Assembly (NCBI RefSeq): GCF_963678975.1
Contig: NC_089279.1
Coordinates: forward strand, 33,630,660-33,694,659
Direction of reading: 5' to 3'
Source: Dysidea avara
Lineage: Eukaryota > Porifera > Demospongiae > Dictyoceratida > Dysideidae
DNA: 64,000 bases
Each line of letters starts with the position of its first letter. Within the stretch, counting starts at the first letter, position 1. This document shows positions 2,785 to 64,000 of the stretch, one piece after another. Made by a program: the position numbers and the translations under genes. Below the pieces are notes generated by a model, which did not search any database, was not told the DNA's origin, and saw only the letters and a program-made list of their open reading frames with translations.

Positions 2785-3440
2785 ATGTCATTGTAGAACC
2801 AGTAGAACCACCATTATCTCTGTCAGCTGGACCGGGGGCCCCATCAGAAAGACCAACAAGAGGTCTTCCATCACCTCCCTAAGCTTGACCACCAACAAGC
2901 TGTCCCACCAATAAGAGGTCCTCCAACAGGACCACCAACAACAAGAGGTCCTCCAACAGGACCACCAAAAAGAAGTCCTCTAACTGGACCACCAACAGCA
3001 GGTCCTCCAACAGGACCACCAAAAAGAAGTCCTCTAACTGGACCACCAACAGCAGGTCCTCCAACTGGACCACCATCAGCAGGTTCTCCAACAGGACCAC
3101 CAACAAGAGGTTCTCTAACTGGACCACCAACAGCAGGTCCTCTAACTGGACCACCAACAGCAGGTTCTCCAACAGGCCTGACCACCAAAAAGAACTCCTC
3201 CAACTAGACCACCAATAAGAGGACCTCCAACAGGACCACTACCAACAAGAAATCCTCCAACTGGACCACCAACAAGAAGATGTCCTCCAACAAACTACCA
3301 ACAAGAGGTCCTCCCAACAGCAGGTTCTTCAACTGGACCACCAACTAGAAGACCTCCATCATTACCAACAGCAGGACCACCAACTGGTCCAACAAGTCCA
3401 ACAGAAGGAATGCCAACAATTGGACCACCAACTTGACCAA
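2785..3440 (+). repeat. Gly/Pro/Thr-coding minisatellite (linker of the relic gene)
   Basis: A tandem repeat of codon-sized units, dominated by GGACCACCAACA and CCTCCAAC variants, spans about 650 bp. On the plus strand one frame reads as G-P-P-T and G-P-P-K-R type repeats over long stretches, with stops and frame changes at both ends. In context this is the extended Pro/Thr-rich stalk between the VWC and Kunitz exons of the relic gene. The minus-strand open frames over it (Leu/Val-rich and Gly/Pro/Val-rich) are by-products of the repeat. Confidence 0.75.
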
Positions 3441-3693
3441 CACCAAGTATCTCACTTCCTTAATAGTAATAAACTTGTTTGATATGCATGTGTGTTTGGT
3501 TACCCATAGATATACATATTATACTGTATCTAGAAATAAACAGAGCTCAATAATGAATTTTAGCTCCCTGTACTTATATATAGTCGGTTCACAATCACCT
3601 CACATTCACCTGAGCTCTCGTTTCTTGTTAATAACAGTTGTTACATGAACTAGCTAGTCAATGATATTGTCATAATTATTGATTTTCATTTAG

Positions 3694-3864
3694 CTTCAAA
3701 CCTTTGTCATCAGCCTAAGGAACATGGGTTGTGCTGGGTTTGCAAACATAGTTTTAATTACAATCAAGAGTCAGGAAATTGTGAACAGTTTATCTATGGT
3801 GGGTGTGGTGGAAATGAGAATCGATTTTCATCCAGAAAAGAGTGTGAGAATGTTTGTAAACAAA
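3694..3864 (+). CDS. Intact Kunitz exon in the relic gene
   Basis: A complete BPTI/Kunitz domain in one phase 1-1 exon of 57 codons, with acceptor TTTAG and donor GTAAAA. It shows the conserved FIYGGCGGNENRF core and a closing CENVC. The P1 position after the second cysteine is Trp, and an extra cysteine sits at P2' (CWVC), giving seven cysteines. Strong trypsin inhibition is therefore unlikely; that is inference from family rules. It is the only undamaged domain in the 1.4-5.2 kb relic. Confidence 0.65.
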
Positions 3865-3930
3865 GTAAAATACAGTATTAACTGTTGACGTTTGCAGGTA
3901 GTACCATACAACTTTTTAATCTTTACATGT

Positions 3931-3974
3931 AATAATATCAAGAGTTTATAATGGTATAAACTCTTGATAATATT
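3931..3974. mobile_element. Miniature hairpin element, copy 1
   Basis: An almost perfect 40-bp palindrome: ATCAAGAGTTTATA, loop ATGG, then TATAAACTCTTGAT. The same architecture with the same ATGG loop recurs at 35683-35722, where an empty site can be compared. It sits in an intron of the relic gene. Confidence 0.55.
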
Positions 3975-4000
3975 AAAGACCAGGAATTCACCTTATGTAG

Positions 4001-4921
4001 CATGGCATGTCCCCCAAACTGCAGTAACTCTCATCCATATGTACAATACAATGTGTACTAGGTTGTCCAGGGGCGTAGGGAGGGGGGGTTCCGGGGGGTT
4101 CAGGAACCCCCCCTGTAAACTTTAGACTTCTGCAAGCAGGATCCTAACACACCATTTAGTGTGGCAGGACAAAATGAGTGAGTTGATAAAACTTACATTC
4201 ATCTCTCAGGGAAGGATTTACAGAGGTAACATGAGCCCTCTTCAAAACTTGTTAAAAAGATCGATATACTCTAATAGAGCAGTCAGGTATATACTCTAAT
4301 AGAGCAGTCAGGTATACTCTAATAGAACATGCATGTAAATATCCATGTCCATATGAAGTTTTTCAGACATTCCAACATTAAATGCAAAACTTAGCATGAC
4401 CTTATACTGCTATAGCTTTGGTGTGCAGTGTTTAAAGATATAGAGCTCCAGTAATTTATCACTTGTGTTATGCAAAATTAATTCATGCTATACATATTTG
4501 TATAGTTAGCTATATTGTTTTGATTGTCATTTGTATCAGTGGATTCATGGCTCTTATACCACAGTGAGATATAACCATCACTTACAGATTACTATATGTG
4601 TCTCTATGTGTTATGCTGTCTGTTTCCACTAGGTGACTTTATCTAGTACTACCTTCATCCCTGGGGCACTTAATGCATCATAATTAATGTACTTTTTGCA
4701 TAAAATATAGTAATTTGCTGAGTTTTGATTTATTAAAATATTGAAAGTCTCTCAGCGGCTGGGGGCTGCGCCCCCAGACCCCTGCTTCTAGTAACTGAAT
4801 GCTGGTGCTGGAACCCCCCTTCAAAAAATCCTGGCTACACCCCTGTTGTCACTGTACGTATGTCCACAAGGAACTGTGCTTGACAAAGTGCAGAACAAAT
4901 GTGTTAGGCTAAACCAATGCA
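4001..4921 (+). pseudogene. TIL exon split by a transposon
   Basis: The first part (4001-4067) encodes a Cys-rich TIL start (ACPPNC) and a frameshifted CVLGC. The second part (4846-4921) encodes the end of the same domain (VCPQGTVLDKVQNKC, then NQC) and stops at a GTAAG donor. Between them lies the 778-bp element at 4068-4845, flanked by the 5-bp duplication TTGTC. Joining the two parts restores the TIL order of cysteines apart from the frameshift. The exon was therefore a real TIL domain before the insertion. Confidence 0.65.
4068..4845. mobile_element. Non-autonomous DNA transposon, CAGGGGYGTAG ends, 5-bp TSD
   Basis: Inverted ends CAGGGGCGTAG and CTACACCCCTG border 778 bp with no transposase. 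The direct repeat TTGTC lies immediately outside both ends. Inside are C/G-rich subterminal tracts and three copies of the ACTCTAATAGAG motif that recurs in other elements of the window. The ends resemble hAT elements, but the duplication is 5 bp rather than the usual 8. Confidence 0.75.
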
Positions 4922-6152: not shown

Positions 6153-6592
6153 TTAAACTGTTGCACTTTTGTTTTTGAAAATCTCCTTCAAGTAAGACAG
6201 CTTCCATCTATTGGCAACACCAACTTCAGAATTCAGAGGTGACTTCTGCAGATCACCCACAGCAAATATGTGATGACAAGGCAGTTTCATAGTGCTAGCA
6301 AATGCACATTGGTGAGAGCTAGAAGTCACTGATAAAGTACCTATGAAAAGAAAACTAACAATAATTGATGAAGCAATATTAATACCTTCACTGGAAGAAA
6401 CTGTATAGAAGTCATTTTGCTGAGTTAAAATTTTGACTTTTTTCCATAATGTTTGTTGTCTCAAAATAAATTGGTAAGCATATGGTGTAACTAAGTTCAC
6501 AAATTCATCTTGGTCAGACTCAAAGACAACTGGCTTCTTCACCAATGCCATAACTGTGCCATGGTCCCGTTCATTCCATAACACAGATAGCA
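6153..6592 (-). CDS. SWIM zinc-finger C-terminal exons of the MULE-derived gene
   Basis: Two exons, 6592-6384 and 6342-6153, separated by a 41-bp intron (GTATTA...CATAG) that also stays open if unspliced. The second carries HQCAFASTMKLPCHHIFAV, a SWIM-type Cys/His pattern found in ZSWIM and MULE proteins. It ends at TAA after KNKSATV. The acceptor TTTTTCAG precedes the first. Confidence 0.65.
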
Positions 6593-6652
6593 CTGAAAAA
6601 AACTGGTCAAAAATCGTGAGAAGCTAGCAAATTTTTAGCAGACACTCTTTAC

Positions 6653-7171
6653 TTTGCTGTTGATTGATTCCAACCTGTTGTTGGTTCTTTCACCAAAGGT
6701 AACACAAGCTGATTTAAAACATTCTACCCACTCGTGCTTGATAACATGCCAGTTAGCATTGTAGTAGTTGACAACAGATTTAGGAACAGTTTCTAGCAAA
6801 GTGGCATAATGCTTTTCATACTCTTCCTCTGAATAAGAATAAGCCAGCTTTGTTATGATCTCTAAAGAGTGATCCCTTTCTCCAGGCCTTATCCAAAGTT
6901 TATCAGCTGTCACTTCCTTCCGAAATGACCTTAAAGCATAAAACAAGCATATCTGTAATTGTACTCCTGGAAATTGCTCTTCAAACACAGCTCTCTCTGT
7001 AAAATCTTTGTCCGTAACTACAACACCTACTTTGCACCATGATGGGTTAACAGATTTGAAAACCTTTACAATGTTGGTGATGGCTTCCTTGGTTTCAAGT
7101 GATGTAAGGAACAGTGAAACAATTTTGCTTTGTCCATTGCTGTCAATCACTAACATTAAGTACAGTGGCAT
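6653..7171 (-). CDS. MULE transposase domain exon segment
   Basis: This is the longest clean part of the ZSWIM3-like gene. It contains the catalytic-core region of the MULE family with its DKDFTERAVFEEQFP block, the CLFYALRSFRKEV helix region, and FGERTNNRLESIN near the end. A donor reads GTAAAG at 6652. The residues fit a DDE-type fold, but the catalytic acids cannot be assigned with certainty by eye. Confidence 0.7.
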
Positions 7172-7904
7172 CCGAAGTTCATTAAGTTTATATTTAGCAT
7201 TAAAAAATGACTTCTGGGAAACAATTGAAATTGTATTTCATCATGGCATCTTGGAAAACAGCCCTGTAAATACTTTCTTTTCATCAACAAATACATCCAC
7301 AGCTGACCCTAAATTTAGGGTAAATTGTTACACAATTAAATAATATACATACTATGAACACATCTTTACATGTACAATAAGTTACAGCACACATCTAAAC
7401 ATCTTTCGATTTAATTGCACTGTAAAACTAAAACAGCAAAAAGAAATATACCTTCAGGCTTCCTTAAACGGCTAACTAAACCATCCAAATCATTCCCGGA
7501 ACTACTGGAATTCAGTTCTCTTTGCACATTTGAAATGTCTTTAAGAGTGACAACTTTTCCAGAGCTGCTTATTAAGTGCTGTTGCAATAGTTTCTTGTTC
7601 ACTTTCATCCCCAAACACACTTTTGCTTCATCTTTTTCGGTACTCTTTAACTGCCTTTGCCTTGGTAAATGGCTGTATATCTCCTATTAGTAAAAAATGG
7701 ATTATCATTATAATTATTTCATTTAATAGCTATAATTATCTGCAGCAAACTCGTATTTCAGATACCATGCAAAGTGGTTAAGAATACACAGCACACTATT
7801 TCATAGGCTTTCAAGGCCAGTTTTAACAATATTTTTGTAATTCAATTTACAAACAATGTGCAGGCAAACCAAAGGTTACAAAAGTATATAGTATCAACAA
7901 CTCC

Positions 7905-30600: not shown

Positions 30601-33600
30601 AGTTTAATGTTCTATGAATATTTTCTAATGAAACATCTGACAAGTAAAATCAGGTGTTCCCCAAAGCACGGTCCTAGGGCTATGAATGTTTTTACTTAAC
30701 GTCAACAACATATGTAGCTAAAGACATAAACTTTTCAATTCACCTCTTCACAGAAATAATATCCTACAACAAGATCTGGATAAAATTTTTCACTAGGCTA
30801 AAACCTGGCAGATGAAAAACAAATCTCAATGTTGAAAAATATGTTTTCCTACAATGCACAACTCCTATAATAACCACTTACTTCATTTAAAATAAGGCAC
30901 TTGTACTAAAGGACCAGCATCCATACTTAGGTGTCACATTCCATCAATCAATGTCTTGGCTCCACCACATTAAAACCACCTCTATACTAAAGCTTCAGCT
31001 TCTAAAACAAAATTTCAGTAAATGTTGTAAAGAAGTATCTTAAGACAACAGCTTATCTAACATTTGTACGTCCTCTACATACGTAAATTGTGTTTGGGAC
31101 CACCACCAACAATATTTGATAAACACAGTAGAGAAAATCCAATGACATGCTGCAAGATCGGTCACATCAGTGCATAATCCAGTGAGTAGTGTTAGACATT
31201 AATTTTGTTAGGCCAGTTGAAGTAGAAGAGTTTACAAAGCATAATACATGTTAGTTGCCTAAATTTATTGTGTAAAGAACTACACCATAACTTACTATCC
31301 ATTCAACTTCCCCTATATTACATCTCCATGGAAACTAGACATTTATTTGTTACTCCAGTAGCCAAAACAGCTGCTGGTAGAAACTTGTCACTGACTTCAA
31401 GGTTTTAGGGGTTAACAGCAAAAATTTTATCCTTGAAATATTTATACCTTCATAACTATAGTCTAAAATATTTTGTATTGTTTGCAAATCCATGAAAATT
31501 TTATTTTTAGCAACATTGCTCATTCCTCGAAAAAATTTCCCCTAAAATGTTTAGGCTATATGGTTCTACCATACTGTTTGATAATTATGTGCATGCGTAA
31601 ATGTGTATGATGTCATTCCTGCTATAGAGTCTACCTTTGACATATTAACTTCTAAACGTGTGTGGTACCTCAAATGTCCACCCATGCATTCATTGGCATC
31701 AGCTGCTTGCCATATACCATCAAATTCCCTCAAGCTGTACTGCACCTTCTTTAGAGTTTATTTGTGAGTTAAAACTTTCTGTTTTGCACTGAAGTGTGGC
31801 AAAAACATGCCGTCCCACTTGAGCTATGGTAGAGTATATGACTACATTTAGAGGTTCCTGGATAATTAAAATCCTATATATATAATTGTAAAGGATATAT
31901 ACTTAAGCCTGGGATTCCCTAAACGCTGATTACATCTGCCACAGTAAGAGCCAAATAGCAAATACGTTATGTATTAACAGTAATTGAAGGAGCCAATAGC
32001 AACAGGGGACAAGTGCTTTTTGAAAATTTTGGTGACCACATGGTGAACATTAAACACAATTTTGGGACATAATTGAATTATTGTAATATTTGCTAAAATT
32101 TGATTTGAGACTGCCATAAACTTTTAAATTATGTTGTTTACTTAGTGACAACGTTATTCACATGGTTCCCTTATTTCGCTTCTTTGTCTATGAATAAAAA
32201 GTTTCAGATTTGTCCTACAGTAATATCATCATCTTCCAGTGGTTTTTATTTTTATTCCTGGCAGAGTATCTAAGCAACATGGTACAGTTTCTGTAAACAT
32301 GACTTCAAGTATTGCACATAAGTAGTATCAATCTATAGATTAAACAATTTGCTTAGAATATGTATATACTACAGTGGTTATTTTGTTGATTTTCTAGTTT
32401 GTCCAGTTATAGGACAGATCATAAAGCAATATGTTAGTCATCCTAATTGTCATGAACGATGCTTTGAGACAGAGATAAGATTATGCCCTCAAATACTCTT
32501 AGAAAATGGATGTATATGTCCTGATGGAATGGCAATAGATGAGGCTACAAATGAGTGTGTTCTTCGAAGTGATTGCCCAGGTATATACTGTCATAGTATT
32601 TTGTTGTGAGTCTTGTGACCATATTACATGTGTTATCCATGCCCAGTTGCTGTTGTTGTTTCCTTACTTCATTTACATGATATCACAGTTTTCCTAGCTG
32701 TAATTGGGGACTTGGTGTTAACTGGGTAAACATCCTACCCAGCTGTGTCATCAATACTATAAGCACATGGGGAAGTAACTGCCAACTGTCCATTCTGGGT
32801 GAACTTAGGGTGCACATACGTCCATCCATGAGGCATGACACACCCCCAGGAGTACTTGCATGCTTGAGTAGTGCACAGGTATCCAGTGTCTCACTGGGCT
32901 ATCATTACTAGCAGAAAGCTTTGATTGTATTGGTTTTGTGTGTGTGCATAAGTGCATGTGTGTGTGTGTGTGTGCATGCGCGCATGTGTGTGTGTGTGTG
33001 TGTGTGTGCATGCGTGCATGTGTGTGTGTATGTGTGTGTGCATGCACGCGCGTGTGTGTGTGCATACGTGCATGTGTGTGTGTGTGCATGCGCGCATGTG
33101 TGTGTGCATGCGTGAGTGTATGTGTGTGTATGTGTGAAACCCTCTTACCATATGATGTAGTTGGTAAGTGCATGATTTACAGAATTTTTTTCTGAAAGCT
33201 ATTATTGTGGATTGAAATATCATTATTATTGCCATGTACCATGTGAAATTTCACAGCTTGCATCATTGACGAATTTCCAACATTTTTTTGCATAGTTGCA
33301 CCTCCTGCTAGTGCTTACATACCAATTATGCATTTCCACTAAAAATAGATGTAATTGATTGCAACGCAATAATTTGAAGTTAAAATTCCTTGGCAGGGGC
33401 AGATCTAGGATTTCCCAAGGGTGGGGGGTGCTAAGCTAGGGGGTTTATAGTGGGAACTAAAATATGTGGCAACTGCTTGATATAACTATATAATAGTAGT
33501 ATTGGTAGTGCACATGAGGAGCATGCTTTATCTAGAGCAGCTGTGGGCATGCCCTCACATGAAAATGTTGCAAATTTAGCTTTCTGAGATCGAATTTGGT

Positions 33601-60447: not shown

Positions 60448-61763
60448 AGCCGGGCTAACCCTATCTTGCCTCGAACTCACCAAAAACTTACCTTCATACA
60501 GACAGTGAAAGACACCATTATGCTTAACAGGCAAACCTCAGGTTAGGGTTTGGGTCGGGTTCAGCTTTGGTTTCTTCTTAACCTGGTTTAGTCATTCTGT
60601 TCTGTTCCATTCCATTCATGGTTTCGGTTATTATAACTTGCCCATTGCAAATATATCTATATTGTAACATGTAATTAATTGCGCACGTGATGCATGTTTG
60701 AAATGGCGCGAGTGAAATGGCGAAGGACTGTTTAACGGTTGGTTGAGATATGTTGCAAGGAAGGAGTTGCTAAACTTGAGTGGTTGCATATCCAAGAAAT
60801 TCCATTCAAATGTGGTCGTCTCTAATATAACAGTCAACCCCCTTTTATTTTATTCATAATGTTGGCCTGTACCACCAATGTCTCAGCAGTTCATCAATGT
60901 TCCAGTCTTGCAAGATTACATTACTTTTAGCAGTCTGTGGTTAATTAAACCAATTAGACTTGGTCTGTTTTATTGGCTTCTTGTCTGTGAAATGTGGTGG
61001 TTAAAAGTGTGTGTGTGTTTGTCTGCATGCATGTGTGTGTCTGTGTGCTTTTGTATCGACAGTAGCTAGTAAGAATGTGATTTATCTATTTTTTGCCTAG
61101 TTTTTCTGGATAACATGGTGTTCTAAATAAGTTTCTGATAAAGAGACAGATTCATTAACATTGGTTTTGTTAAGCTTTTGTGTTGTATTTGAACCAATTA
61201 ATCTAGTTTGTTGGCAGAGACCCCTTCCTGGTCATGTGATCTGTATGCTGTGATCACAAGTGGTAAAAATAAAATCATGCCAAGCTTTGAGCTGACACAA
61301 AGTATCCCTATGCAAACAACGATAATAATTAGACCATACATACTGTGTTAGTAGGATGGTGCCTCTCACACATGCATAGAATTTAATTGAATTGCGTGAT
61401 CTAGAGGCTGTCACCATTTCAAGCCTTTTTTCCAGCGGCTTTGACAGCTACGCACGGTTGCACCGGTAATATACGTGGGCTGATTGATATATACAAGGCA
61501 GGGTGTATGTGCAGTGTATGTAGATCTGTGTGTGTTTTTTAAAATCAAAAACCGCGGTAAAATCAGCTAGCTGTGAACATTCACAAATACCTATCATTTG
61601 TTGGATTGAGCTCGGGAAGCTTGATTCACCCATAGAGTACTACGCGCACGTGATTTGGGTTCTAATCCTACAATGAAACTTAATTACCAGTTTCTCGCTC
61701 AGAGTTTTGAAAATTTGATGCGGGCGTATGGAACGCCGTTTGTAACAAAAATATACCTGACTC

Positions 61764-62012
61764 CAGCTACCTTATTATCGCCGATAATAAAACACCATCC
61801 TTATTATCGCCGATAATAATTTATTATCGCCGATAATAAGACCTCGCCTTATTATCGCCGATAATAACACTTATTATCGCCGATAATAAGACCTCACCTT
61901 ATTATCGCCGATGATAAGACTACAGCTTTATTATCGCCGATGATAATACTACAGCTTATTGTCGCCGATGATAAGGACTCTAAGTTATTATCGCCGATAA
62001 TAAGACAGCGCT
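61764..62012. repeat. Array of nine 19-bp palindromes, left end of the HECT element
   Basis: TTATTATCGCCGATAATAA (an odd palindrome centred on C) and close variants occur nine times, with starts about 20-30 bp apart and spacers such as GACCTCACC. The reverse-complement form reappears at 63976-63995, where the right array is cut by the window end. Confidence 0.85.
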
Positions 62013-62732
62013 TATTTTCCTAGGATATAATTAAGACAGCGCTTAAATTATGTCCTCGGGCGCGTATATAGTTCTATTAGCTTTTATTATTAATAATAAT
62101 GTTAGCTAGCCAAGTCATGGCTGCTTCAGTGAATCATGGCATCATCAGTGACCAGCTGCAGTATGGAGTTGAACAAGGTCGTAGGCAGACACCAGCTGAT
62201 CTAGTCAAAAATGATTATTTCGAGGGGCAAATTTTTCGAGGTTGAGCATTGTTGCTAAAAACTTTTTTCACGGATTTGCAAACACTCCCAAAATGTATTA
62301 GCTATATGGAAGTCTAGAATAAACTTCTCGCTGATAACTACCCCCATGCAAAACCGCGAAAACTACTGATTTTCCCCTCAAAGTATTTGGTACAATACCT
62401 AACACATGCATCATATGCAACTATCCAAAATCATCAATGTTTATTATTATTTTTATTTATTATTGTTAGCACTTTACAGTGACCAGCACTGAAGGTCTGA
62501 CAGCAACATGTGCTGCAGCCTTAGGATTACCTAACCTAATTTCAGGGACTTATACCTAATGACTTGACAACTGGTGTACTGACAGTCAAAGAGCATTCAT
62601 GTCCCAAGCATAGTCATCATCAGCTAAAATGGCATTGAACTCTTCCCAGAAGACAGAAAAATTATTGAGAGAGGTATGTGATATGGTATTAATTTACAAA
62701 ATGTTACTATATAGCTTTGTATGTTGTAGCGG

Positions 62733-63404
62733 AAGACAAACGTTTGGAGTTTGTGAACCAAATTTGTCCAGTGACACCTCCAATTCTGACTGCTCATGTG
62801 ATACGATGAAAAGAAGTGTTTCGAGATACCATGGAACTTTTGAGCAAAGATAAAGTGTTTAAAGAGTTTCCTCTCAAAATTCAATTTGCAAATGAGCAGG
62901 CAATAGACTGTGGTGGAGTGTGTCATGATATGTTTTCTGCATTTGCTTATTTCCACTTTTTTTAAGGATCAAACCTGCTTATTCCATGTCTGCATGCAAA
63001 TGGCTAGCATTGGCTGTGGAGTCCCTTCTAATGAGAAGCAGTTTTGGGATAGTTTCACTGTTGAGGAACTATATTCTCTGTATGATTCACTTAGTGCGAC
63101 TCCAGAAAAGGTTTTGGCTATACTAGATGAACCCATTGAGGAGAATTCTACCCAAGCAACTGTTTTTGGCTATTTAGAGCTTTATGTTGGGAACATGAAG
63201 AATGAAGAGGCTAGGTGTTTCTTGAGGTATACCACAGGGAGTTTAGTGTTGATTGGTCAACATACAACTGTTGGCTTTAACAGCTTATCAGGATTCGCCT
63301 GGCGACCTACTGCCCATACATGTGGGTGTGAATTGGAACTGCCTTCAACCTATCTCAGCTATCTTGAGTTTGAGAAAGAGTTCAATGCCATCAGTTTTAG
63401 CTGA
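62733..63404 (+). pseudogene. HECT-type E3 ubiquitin-ligase fragment in the TIR element
   Basis: One frame at 62740-62960 gives an N-lobe start (FPLKIQFANEQAIDCGGV, HECT consensus 'D.GGV'), after an in-frame TGA near 62800. A TAA at 62966 and a frame change near 62995 lead into a C-lobe open to TGA at 63402. That C-lobe shows FTVEELYSLYDSL, EARCFLRYTTGSLVLIG, FNSLSG and the catalytic-cysteine region RPTAHTC followed by LELPSTYLSYLEF. HTC with its downstream LxLPxY is the standard HECT active-site context, as in G2E3-type ligases. Missing N-lobe parts and frame breaks suggest a defective copy, but the C-lobe is clean. Confidence 0.7.
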
Positions 63405-64000
63405 TCGATAACTGTGCTTGGGACATGAATGCTTGTTGACTGTCAGTACACCAGTTGTAGCCAGGACGCTGTGTATATTACTTTAATGATTTTTGCATGT
63501 GTGTCATGTAGCTACCATTTATAACATGATCTGTTAATAAACATTGATGATTTCGATAGTTGCGTATGATGCATGTGTTAGGTATTGTACCAAATACTTT
63601 GAGGGGAAAATCAGTAGTTTTCGCGGTTTTGCATGGGGGTAGTTATCAGCGAGAAGTTTATTCTAGACCTCCATATAGCTAATACATTTTGGGAGTGTTT
63701 GCAAATCCGTGAAAAAAGTTTTTAGCAACAATGCTCAACCTCGAAAAATTTGCCCCTCGAAATAATCATTTTTGACTAGATCAGCTGGTGTCTGCCTACG
63801 ACCTTGTTCAACTCCATACTGCAGCTGGTCACTGATGATGCCATGATTCACTGAAGCAGCCATGACTTGGCTAGCTAACATTATTATTAATAATAAAAGC
63901 TAATAGAACTATATACGCGCCCGAGGACATAATTTAAGCGCTGTCTTAATTATATCCTAGGAAAATAATCGCTGTCTTATTATCGGCGATAATAAGTTAG

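Follow-up and report, generated by a model that had tools for sequence, protein, structure and literature searches.

Does a DNA transposon of the sponge Dysidea avara carry a HECT ubiquitin ligase as a gene of its own, or has it captured a host ligase? The question is raised by one end of a 64,000-nucleotide stretch (hereafter "the window", meaning the whole of that stretch; C8:33630660-33694659 in a 550.8-Mb genome of 108 contigs), where a HECT C-lobe lies between long inverted arms. A preliminary description had left both options open, had placed the start of the element at 61764 and had given its arms ~450 bp. Whole-locus comparison (the window locus is L011; L011 position + 60340 = window position) moves the start to 61727, and in the genome the arms are really ~720 bp long, having been cut by the window end, beyond which lie the last 205 bp of the element. 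The complete window copy has TATGG..CCATA termini, identical at the two ends (TATGGAACGCCGTTTGTAACAAAAAT), and an exact target duplication (Table 1). The near-identity of the arms was confirmed within the window (61980-62429 and 63551-64000, 450 nt, 99% complementary), and the full arms give two aligned segments, 98.1% and 100% identical. The arrays of a 19-bp palindrome are likewise present, with nine units in the left arm and seven in the right, and within the window this palindrome is confined to these arms (searched with up to 3 mismatches).

Table 1. Features of the window copy (window positions) and of four two-ended sister elements (contig positions).
Feature	Position	Strand	Target duplication	Remarks
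Left target-site duplication	61721..61726		CGGGCG	exact 6/6; right copy at C8:33694865, beyond window
Transposon	61727..64000 in window, ends 64205	+		2,479 bp total
26-bp terminus TATGGAACGCCGTTTGTAACAAAAAT	61727..61752	+		common to other families of the genome
Left inverted arm, ~720 bp	61727..62446	+		tiles = inverted right end of L023
Nine-unit array of 19-bp palindrome TTATTATCGCCGATAATAA	61772..62003	+		0-2 mismatches
Inverted duplicate of HECT 3' end (last codons)	62567..62644	-		belongs to copied right end
HECT N-lobe remnant	62711..63001	+		residues 26-125 of L023 frame; two in-frame stops
165-residue open frame with HECT C-lobe	62907..63404	+		residues 244-374 of L023 frame; HTC 63315-63323
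Right inverted arm, in-window part	63535..64000	+		one palindrome 63977-63995; six more outside
Sister element	C6:9786691-9796135		CGTACG	no stop in matched parts
Sister element	C8:1647907-1657310		CTCCCG	catalytic exon with one stop
Sister element	C13:6513605-6523906		CGGGCG	both genes broken
Sister element	C4:22426111-22440698		CGGAAG	HECT in pieces, one stop in catalytic exon

The reported absence of a visible transposase holds for the inside of the element, where none was found, but not for the window, which includes a MULE-type transposase remnant at 6153-7237 on the minus strand, unrelated to the HECT element (Pfam on 6635-7237: ZSWIM1-3 RNaseH-like, E=2.3e-24; MULE, E=4.8e-14). As a helper this remnant was rejected, since ZSWIM/MULE domains mark a different type of element. 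Elsewhere in the window, five long frames encode VWA or VWD/C8 domain proteins, and a stretch at 31457-31543 is ~81% identical to the arm (62223-62306), perhaps as an old relic of the element.

The HECT C-lobe of the preliminary description, with its intact HTC, is there as far as the active site is concerned, the Cys codon lying at 63321-63323 within AHTC. The fragment falls below the Pfam HECT cut-off (16.7 vs. 23.9 bits, E=0.0061), and the gene is broken. A guide to it is a relative, L023 (C6:18807631-18811499, target duplication GGGCCG), which has an unbroken 387-residue frame with a HECT domain (3358-4518, 27.8 bits vs. the 23.9 cut-off). Compared with L023, the window HECT is missing residues ~126-243, changes frame there, and has two stops in its N-lobe piece. 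On this comparison the window HECT is a dead fossil piece, and its open C-lobe frame happenstance.

The same relative points to the origin of the long arms. L023 has shorter arms, with ~240 bp common to both ends, and tiling of the window copy against it showed that the left side, to ~62644, is the L023 right end inverted, a match that reaches the last HECT codons; past the ~240 bp common to the L023 ends, the left-side tiles match the L023 right end only, and one tile (from 62427) has no L023 match at all. The inverted HECT 3' end within this side is 97% identical to positions 3209-3132 of the L023 element, which overlap the HECT 3' end, and 89% identical over 83 bp to 63376-63458 of the window copy itself. 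Because the left side matches the inverted L023 right end, the long arms are, on the tiling, secondary, an inverted copy of the right end having overwritten the left one. This replacement presumably also removed the transposase part.

A 501-base arm query has at least 57 matching pieces in the genome, from which 20 regions were fetched, corresponding to 19 arm-bearing loci (L011-L027, L028 and L029 as one, and L030, apparently L028 duplicated in a segment nearby). Whether HECT recurs with these arms had been asked at the outset, and HECT sequence was found between or beside them at 17 of the 19 loci (all but L014 and L025). Target duplications flank the copies too; these are 6 bp long and exact in 10 of 14 two-ended copies (CGGGCG, AGAGCG, CGATCG, CGCACG, CGGTCG, CGTCCG, CGCACG, GGGACG, GGGCCG and CCGCCG), the first CGCACG (L016) sitting in a simple repeat and being weak evidence. 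One mismatch separates the two sides at L013, and L014, L020 and L024 have non-matching flanks. Compared with the window copy, L017 is 98.7% identical over 2,392 bp and L016 98.8% over 1,430 bp plus 98.3% over 862 bp, and the same HECT gap is seen in L011, L016 and L017. Separate copies being near-identical with a common HECT gap, the short form itself probably moved recently. The recent activity first deduced from arm identity is thus supported, although arm identity is a weaker basis for it than the 98-99% identity of L011 and L017 with their different target duplications.

Whether longer copies also hold a transposase, another point raised at the outset, received a divided answer. The N-terminal, helix-turn-helix (HTH)-like part of an IS3EU-type transposase is kept at 10 of the 19 window-family loci, but the DDE catalytic exon was detected at none (0/19), and a genome search with the catalytic exon of one sister (see below) returned no window-family locus among the matches listed; for L030, of which the fetched region covers only part of its element, the absence of the exon comes from this search. 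Because the catalytic exon was found at none of the 19 loci, the window family looks non-autonomous, and the window copy is a non-autonomous deletion derivative. In this family one strand holds both HECT and the transposase remnant, unlike in the sister families.

These sister families have in common a 26-bp terminus (TATGG[A/C]ACGCCGTTTGTAACAAAAAT), and TATGGMACGCCGTTTGTAACAAAAAT occurs at 37 exact places in the 550.8 Mb vs. 0 for the reversed control. Four sister elements (9.4-14.6 kb, Table 1) hold a transposase and a HECT gene tail to tail and are flanked by exact 6-bp duplications (4/4), with a damaged gene in three of the four; at the C4 element the N-terminal transposase exon was unmatched. 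The C6 element has arms of ~175 bp (86%) and includes L051, where two exons encode the transposase, one N-terminal and one DDE, the latter matching Pfam rva_4 (E=1.7e-80; 5.2e-50 for L045) and rve (E=7.5e-08); Pfam matches of the HTH-like N-terminus stayed below the cut-offs. In the C6 element, two open frames upstream of HECT (L063 291-818 and 2507-3019) had no Pfam match; they may be 5' exons of HECT or belong to a third gene. Among six sister transposase loci (L034, L035, L036, L040, L045 and L050), the terminus was nearby in all but L050, and at L060, a HECT-transposase pair, it was unrecognised within the 6.3 kb fetched.

In the accessible part of PMC10045372, IS3EU families are described as always having TA..TA termini and usually 6-bp target duplications, both of which are found here, and the sponge TATGG..CCATA fits the TAYGG..CCRTA given for fungal TET-bearing IS3EU in the accessible part of PMC12730594. 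An IS3/IS481-like DDE transposase is present in the sister families, whereas in the window family itself its DDE exon was detected at none of the 19 loci; the likeness to IS3EU extends to an integrase-like DDE core and an HTH-like N-terminus, the latter below the Pfam cut-offs. Placing the superfamily by termini, duplications and domains, and adding the gene pairing described below, we consider it highly probable that this lineage belongs to IS3EU and carries a DDE transposase together with HECT. What sets it apart is the HECT E3 gene (neither "HECT" nor "ubiquitin" appears anywhere in PMC10045372 or PMC12730594), along with CpG-edged targets and palindrome arrays, which do not appear in the accessible parts of these two papers. 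The fungal TET/JBP IS3EU that have an alpha-kinase gene, in opposite orientation to the transposase, resemble the sponge elements as IS3EU with accessory enzyme genes (PMC12730594, accessible part), but the cargo is a ubiquitin ligase here and a dioxygenase plus kinase there, and the host kingdom is probably different, the VWA/VWD genes of the window suggesting an animal.

We evaluated the pairing of HECT with transposase across the genome from hand-picked sets, namely 44 HECT entries chosen from 104 places (window family left out, one place per cluster, except that four clusters kept two entries each) and 73 transposase loci chosen likewise from 94 places; because the genome search scores only its best candidates, HECT and transposase counts are lower bounds. 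Among the matches listed, 22 of the 44 HECT entries have a transposase exon at most 10 kb away vs. 0.12 expected, and chance pairing was rejected on these numbers. Merging neighbours within 10 kb reduces the 44 entries to 40, 21 of which have a transposase exon. The arrangement is tail to tail at every transposase locus with HECT within 10 kb (21/21), as it was for all pairs in a preceding search based on the HTH part (18/44 HECT entries), and at L051 ~85 bp separate the end of the 372-residue HECT frame from that of the transposase frame in this arrangement. HECT was present at 13 of the 14 best-scoring DDE loci vs. 8 of the 59 others. The pairing is partial in both directions: among the matches listed, 52 of 73 transposase loci have no such HECT within 10 kb, and, outside the window family, 22 of the 44 HECT entries (19/40 after merging) are without a transposase exon within the same distance.

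A broader genome search with the Pfam HECT profile (122 places, merged by strand and a 10-kb rule into 66 loci) found 17 loci near a transposase in total vs. 0.24 expected; the 12-kb proximity limit was set after viewing the list, and all of these matches fall within 10 kb anyway. It added 11 weakly scoring HECT loci near transposase matches, in mixed orientation (3 convergent, 5 divergent, 3 on the same strand). Three of these added C-lobes were read by eye, and have Ser-Ala-Cys (L073 and L074) or Thr-Cys (L070) where the catalytic cysteine would lie. No HECT locus with a score over 60 bits was near a transposase (0/17); these loci are host-gene-like. Another set of three loci, on C2, C9 and C5 (L059 4788-5957, L061 7974-9098 and L062 1492-2610), has HECT within a several-kb repeat that is 97-98% identical and shows no IS3EU exon or exact terminus among the matches listed; either HECT also rides another kind of element, or the copies of this trio are damaged.

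At the protein level, the alignment of seven HECT frames spans most of their length, with 37-52% identity to L023 and with Thr350 and Cys351 invariant in 7/7 (L054 and L055 among them are members of the transposase-less trio). The catalytic Cys is aligned with the AHTC of AREL1, and the profile weakly matches solved HECT E3s (AREL1, RSP5/NEDD4 and E6AP among the closest) in N- and C-lobe stretches. The proteins therefore resemble HECT E3 ligases in both lobes, but are divergent (four full-length frames at ~27-31 bits, all above the 23.9 cut-off: L023 27.8, L051 28.5, L054 31.3 and L057 26.8) and transposon-encoded. Between families, synonymous sites are saturated (pS 0.70-0.80) vs. pN of 0.31-0.47. 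A finite dS was obtained in only 4 of 26 between-family pairs (dN/dS 0.23-0.34), the printed 0.00 for the other 22 being no measurement, and for this reason we claim constraint on the HECT protein, as indicated by these substitution patterns, rather than a dN/dS ratio. Because HECT is paired with transposase across families, synonymous sites are saturated and the protein is constrained, the sequence evidence identifies HECT as a second gene that these transposons have long carried. Between the two options of the preliminary description, an own gene is thus favoured over a recent capture, since sister elements pair HECT with transposase across families whose HECT proteins are only 37-52% identical to that of the window family, while the window copy itself is a dead derivative.

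A recent capture, in which the transposon took a piece of a host HECT gene that hitch-hikes without function, would suit the window copy and most copies of its family, all of which hold broken HECT pieces only. Such a history seems very improbable given a pairing that spans these divergent families, the constrained protein with saturated synonymous sites, and the lack of any high-scoring HECT locus near a transposase (0/17). The HECT genes near transposases could instead belong to a host multigene family invaded by transposons, and about half of the HECT entries indeed have no nearby transposase exon; however, in four elements matching termini, flanked by exact target duplications, enclose both genes, and the tail-to-tail order is constant (21/21). 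We regard this explanation as very improbable overall, since it is hard to hold for the four two-ended elements, although it could fit some lone HECT loci. Arms with internal palindromic repeats also recall foldback elements, and a foldback-type element, or an assembly artefact, next to HECT by chance would account for the structure first seen in the window. Foldback (FB) elements have a 9-bp target duplication and the one here is 6 bp, so that membership was rejected, and 14 two-ended copies at different places, 10 of them with exact duplications, together with long arms that derive from the right end by inverted duplication and arms of only ~240 bp in L023, make either variant scarcely credible.

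Given a long-standing second gene, the remaining alternative concerns what HECT does. The element's own HECT gene may ubiquitinate the transposase or truncated forms of it, limiting copy number; the window family, which keeps HTH and HECT parts with no DDE exon detected, and the modest copy numbers (37 exact termini in 550.8 Mb) are consistent with such self-restraint, but modest copy number equally fits host control. We rate this self-restraint as rather unlikely, and a regulator of transposase level as the next best role for HECT. Anti-host action is placed first because fungal IS3EU carry DNA-demethylating TET/JBP enzymes thought to evade silencing (PMC12730594, accessible part), and by this analogy HECT would most likely tag a host restriction factor acting on the transposon or its chromatin, as a counterpart to the TET/JBP cargo. 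This role, raised as a possibility in the preliminary description too, is offered tentatively; the fuller proposition, that an animal IS3EU lineage keeps its own HECT E3 as a standing second gene which destroys or reprograms a host silencing factor, is put forward with still more reserve. In either version the HECT protein would act in trans for the element. The window family itself may be moved in trans by a sister-family transposase through the common 26-bp terminus, with the subterminal palindrome arrays as putative binding sites for the N-terminal helix-turn-helix domain of the transposase, or for its repressor form.

In the literature searched, IS3EU occurs in 35 papers, none of which also has HECT, though an earlier mention is possible. 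Other searches on HECT with transposons gave either no paper or nothing relevant among the papers listed, which for two broad searches were a small share of the matches. Accessory genes of DNA transposons reveal what transposons need from their hosts. Should HECT serve against silencing, its targets would lead to the host factors that keep transposons in check, and the host-silencing reading, if true, would amount to a transposon-encoded counter-defence via ubiquitin tagging; if HECT restrains the transposase, it would be a copy-control device. Under either role, constraint on the enzyme says that HECT activity matters. A caution also follows for such genomes, in which some HECT-like genes are transposon genes and no host ligases.

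Lastly, the ends of these elements suggest a preference in target choice. CG lies directly outside the terminus at 26 of 37 distinct ends (27 of 38 rows, the L035/L051 end being counted twice), against a CG share of 1.3% among window dinucleotides. CG closes 13 of the 14 exact duplications and opens nine of them, which suggests a CpG-edged target resembling CGNNCG; the window is 37% G+C and CpG-poor. In other families, palindromic or repeated units follow the terminus with a different sequence (read by eye), and a subterminal pattern kept while its letters change would fit co-evolving binding sites. A search of plasmid DNA with part of the arm gave no match, and in viral contigs the HECT profile gave 68 pattern stretches, none confirmed as relatives. 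Two viral contigs each have a single exact copy of the 19-bp palindrome (L001 11681-11699 and L002 9994-10012).
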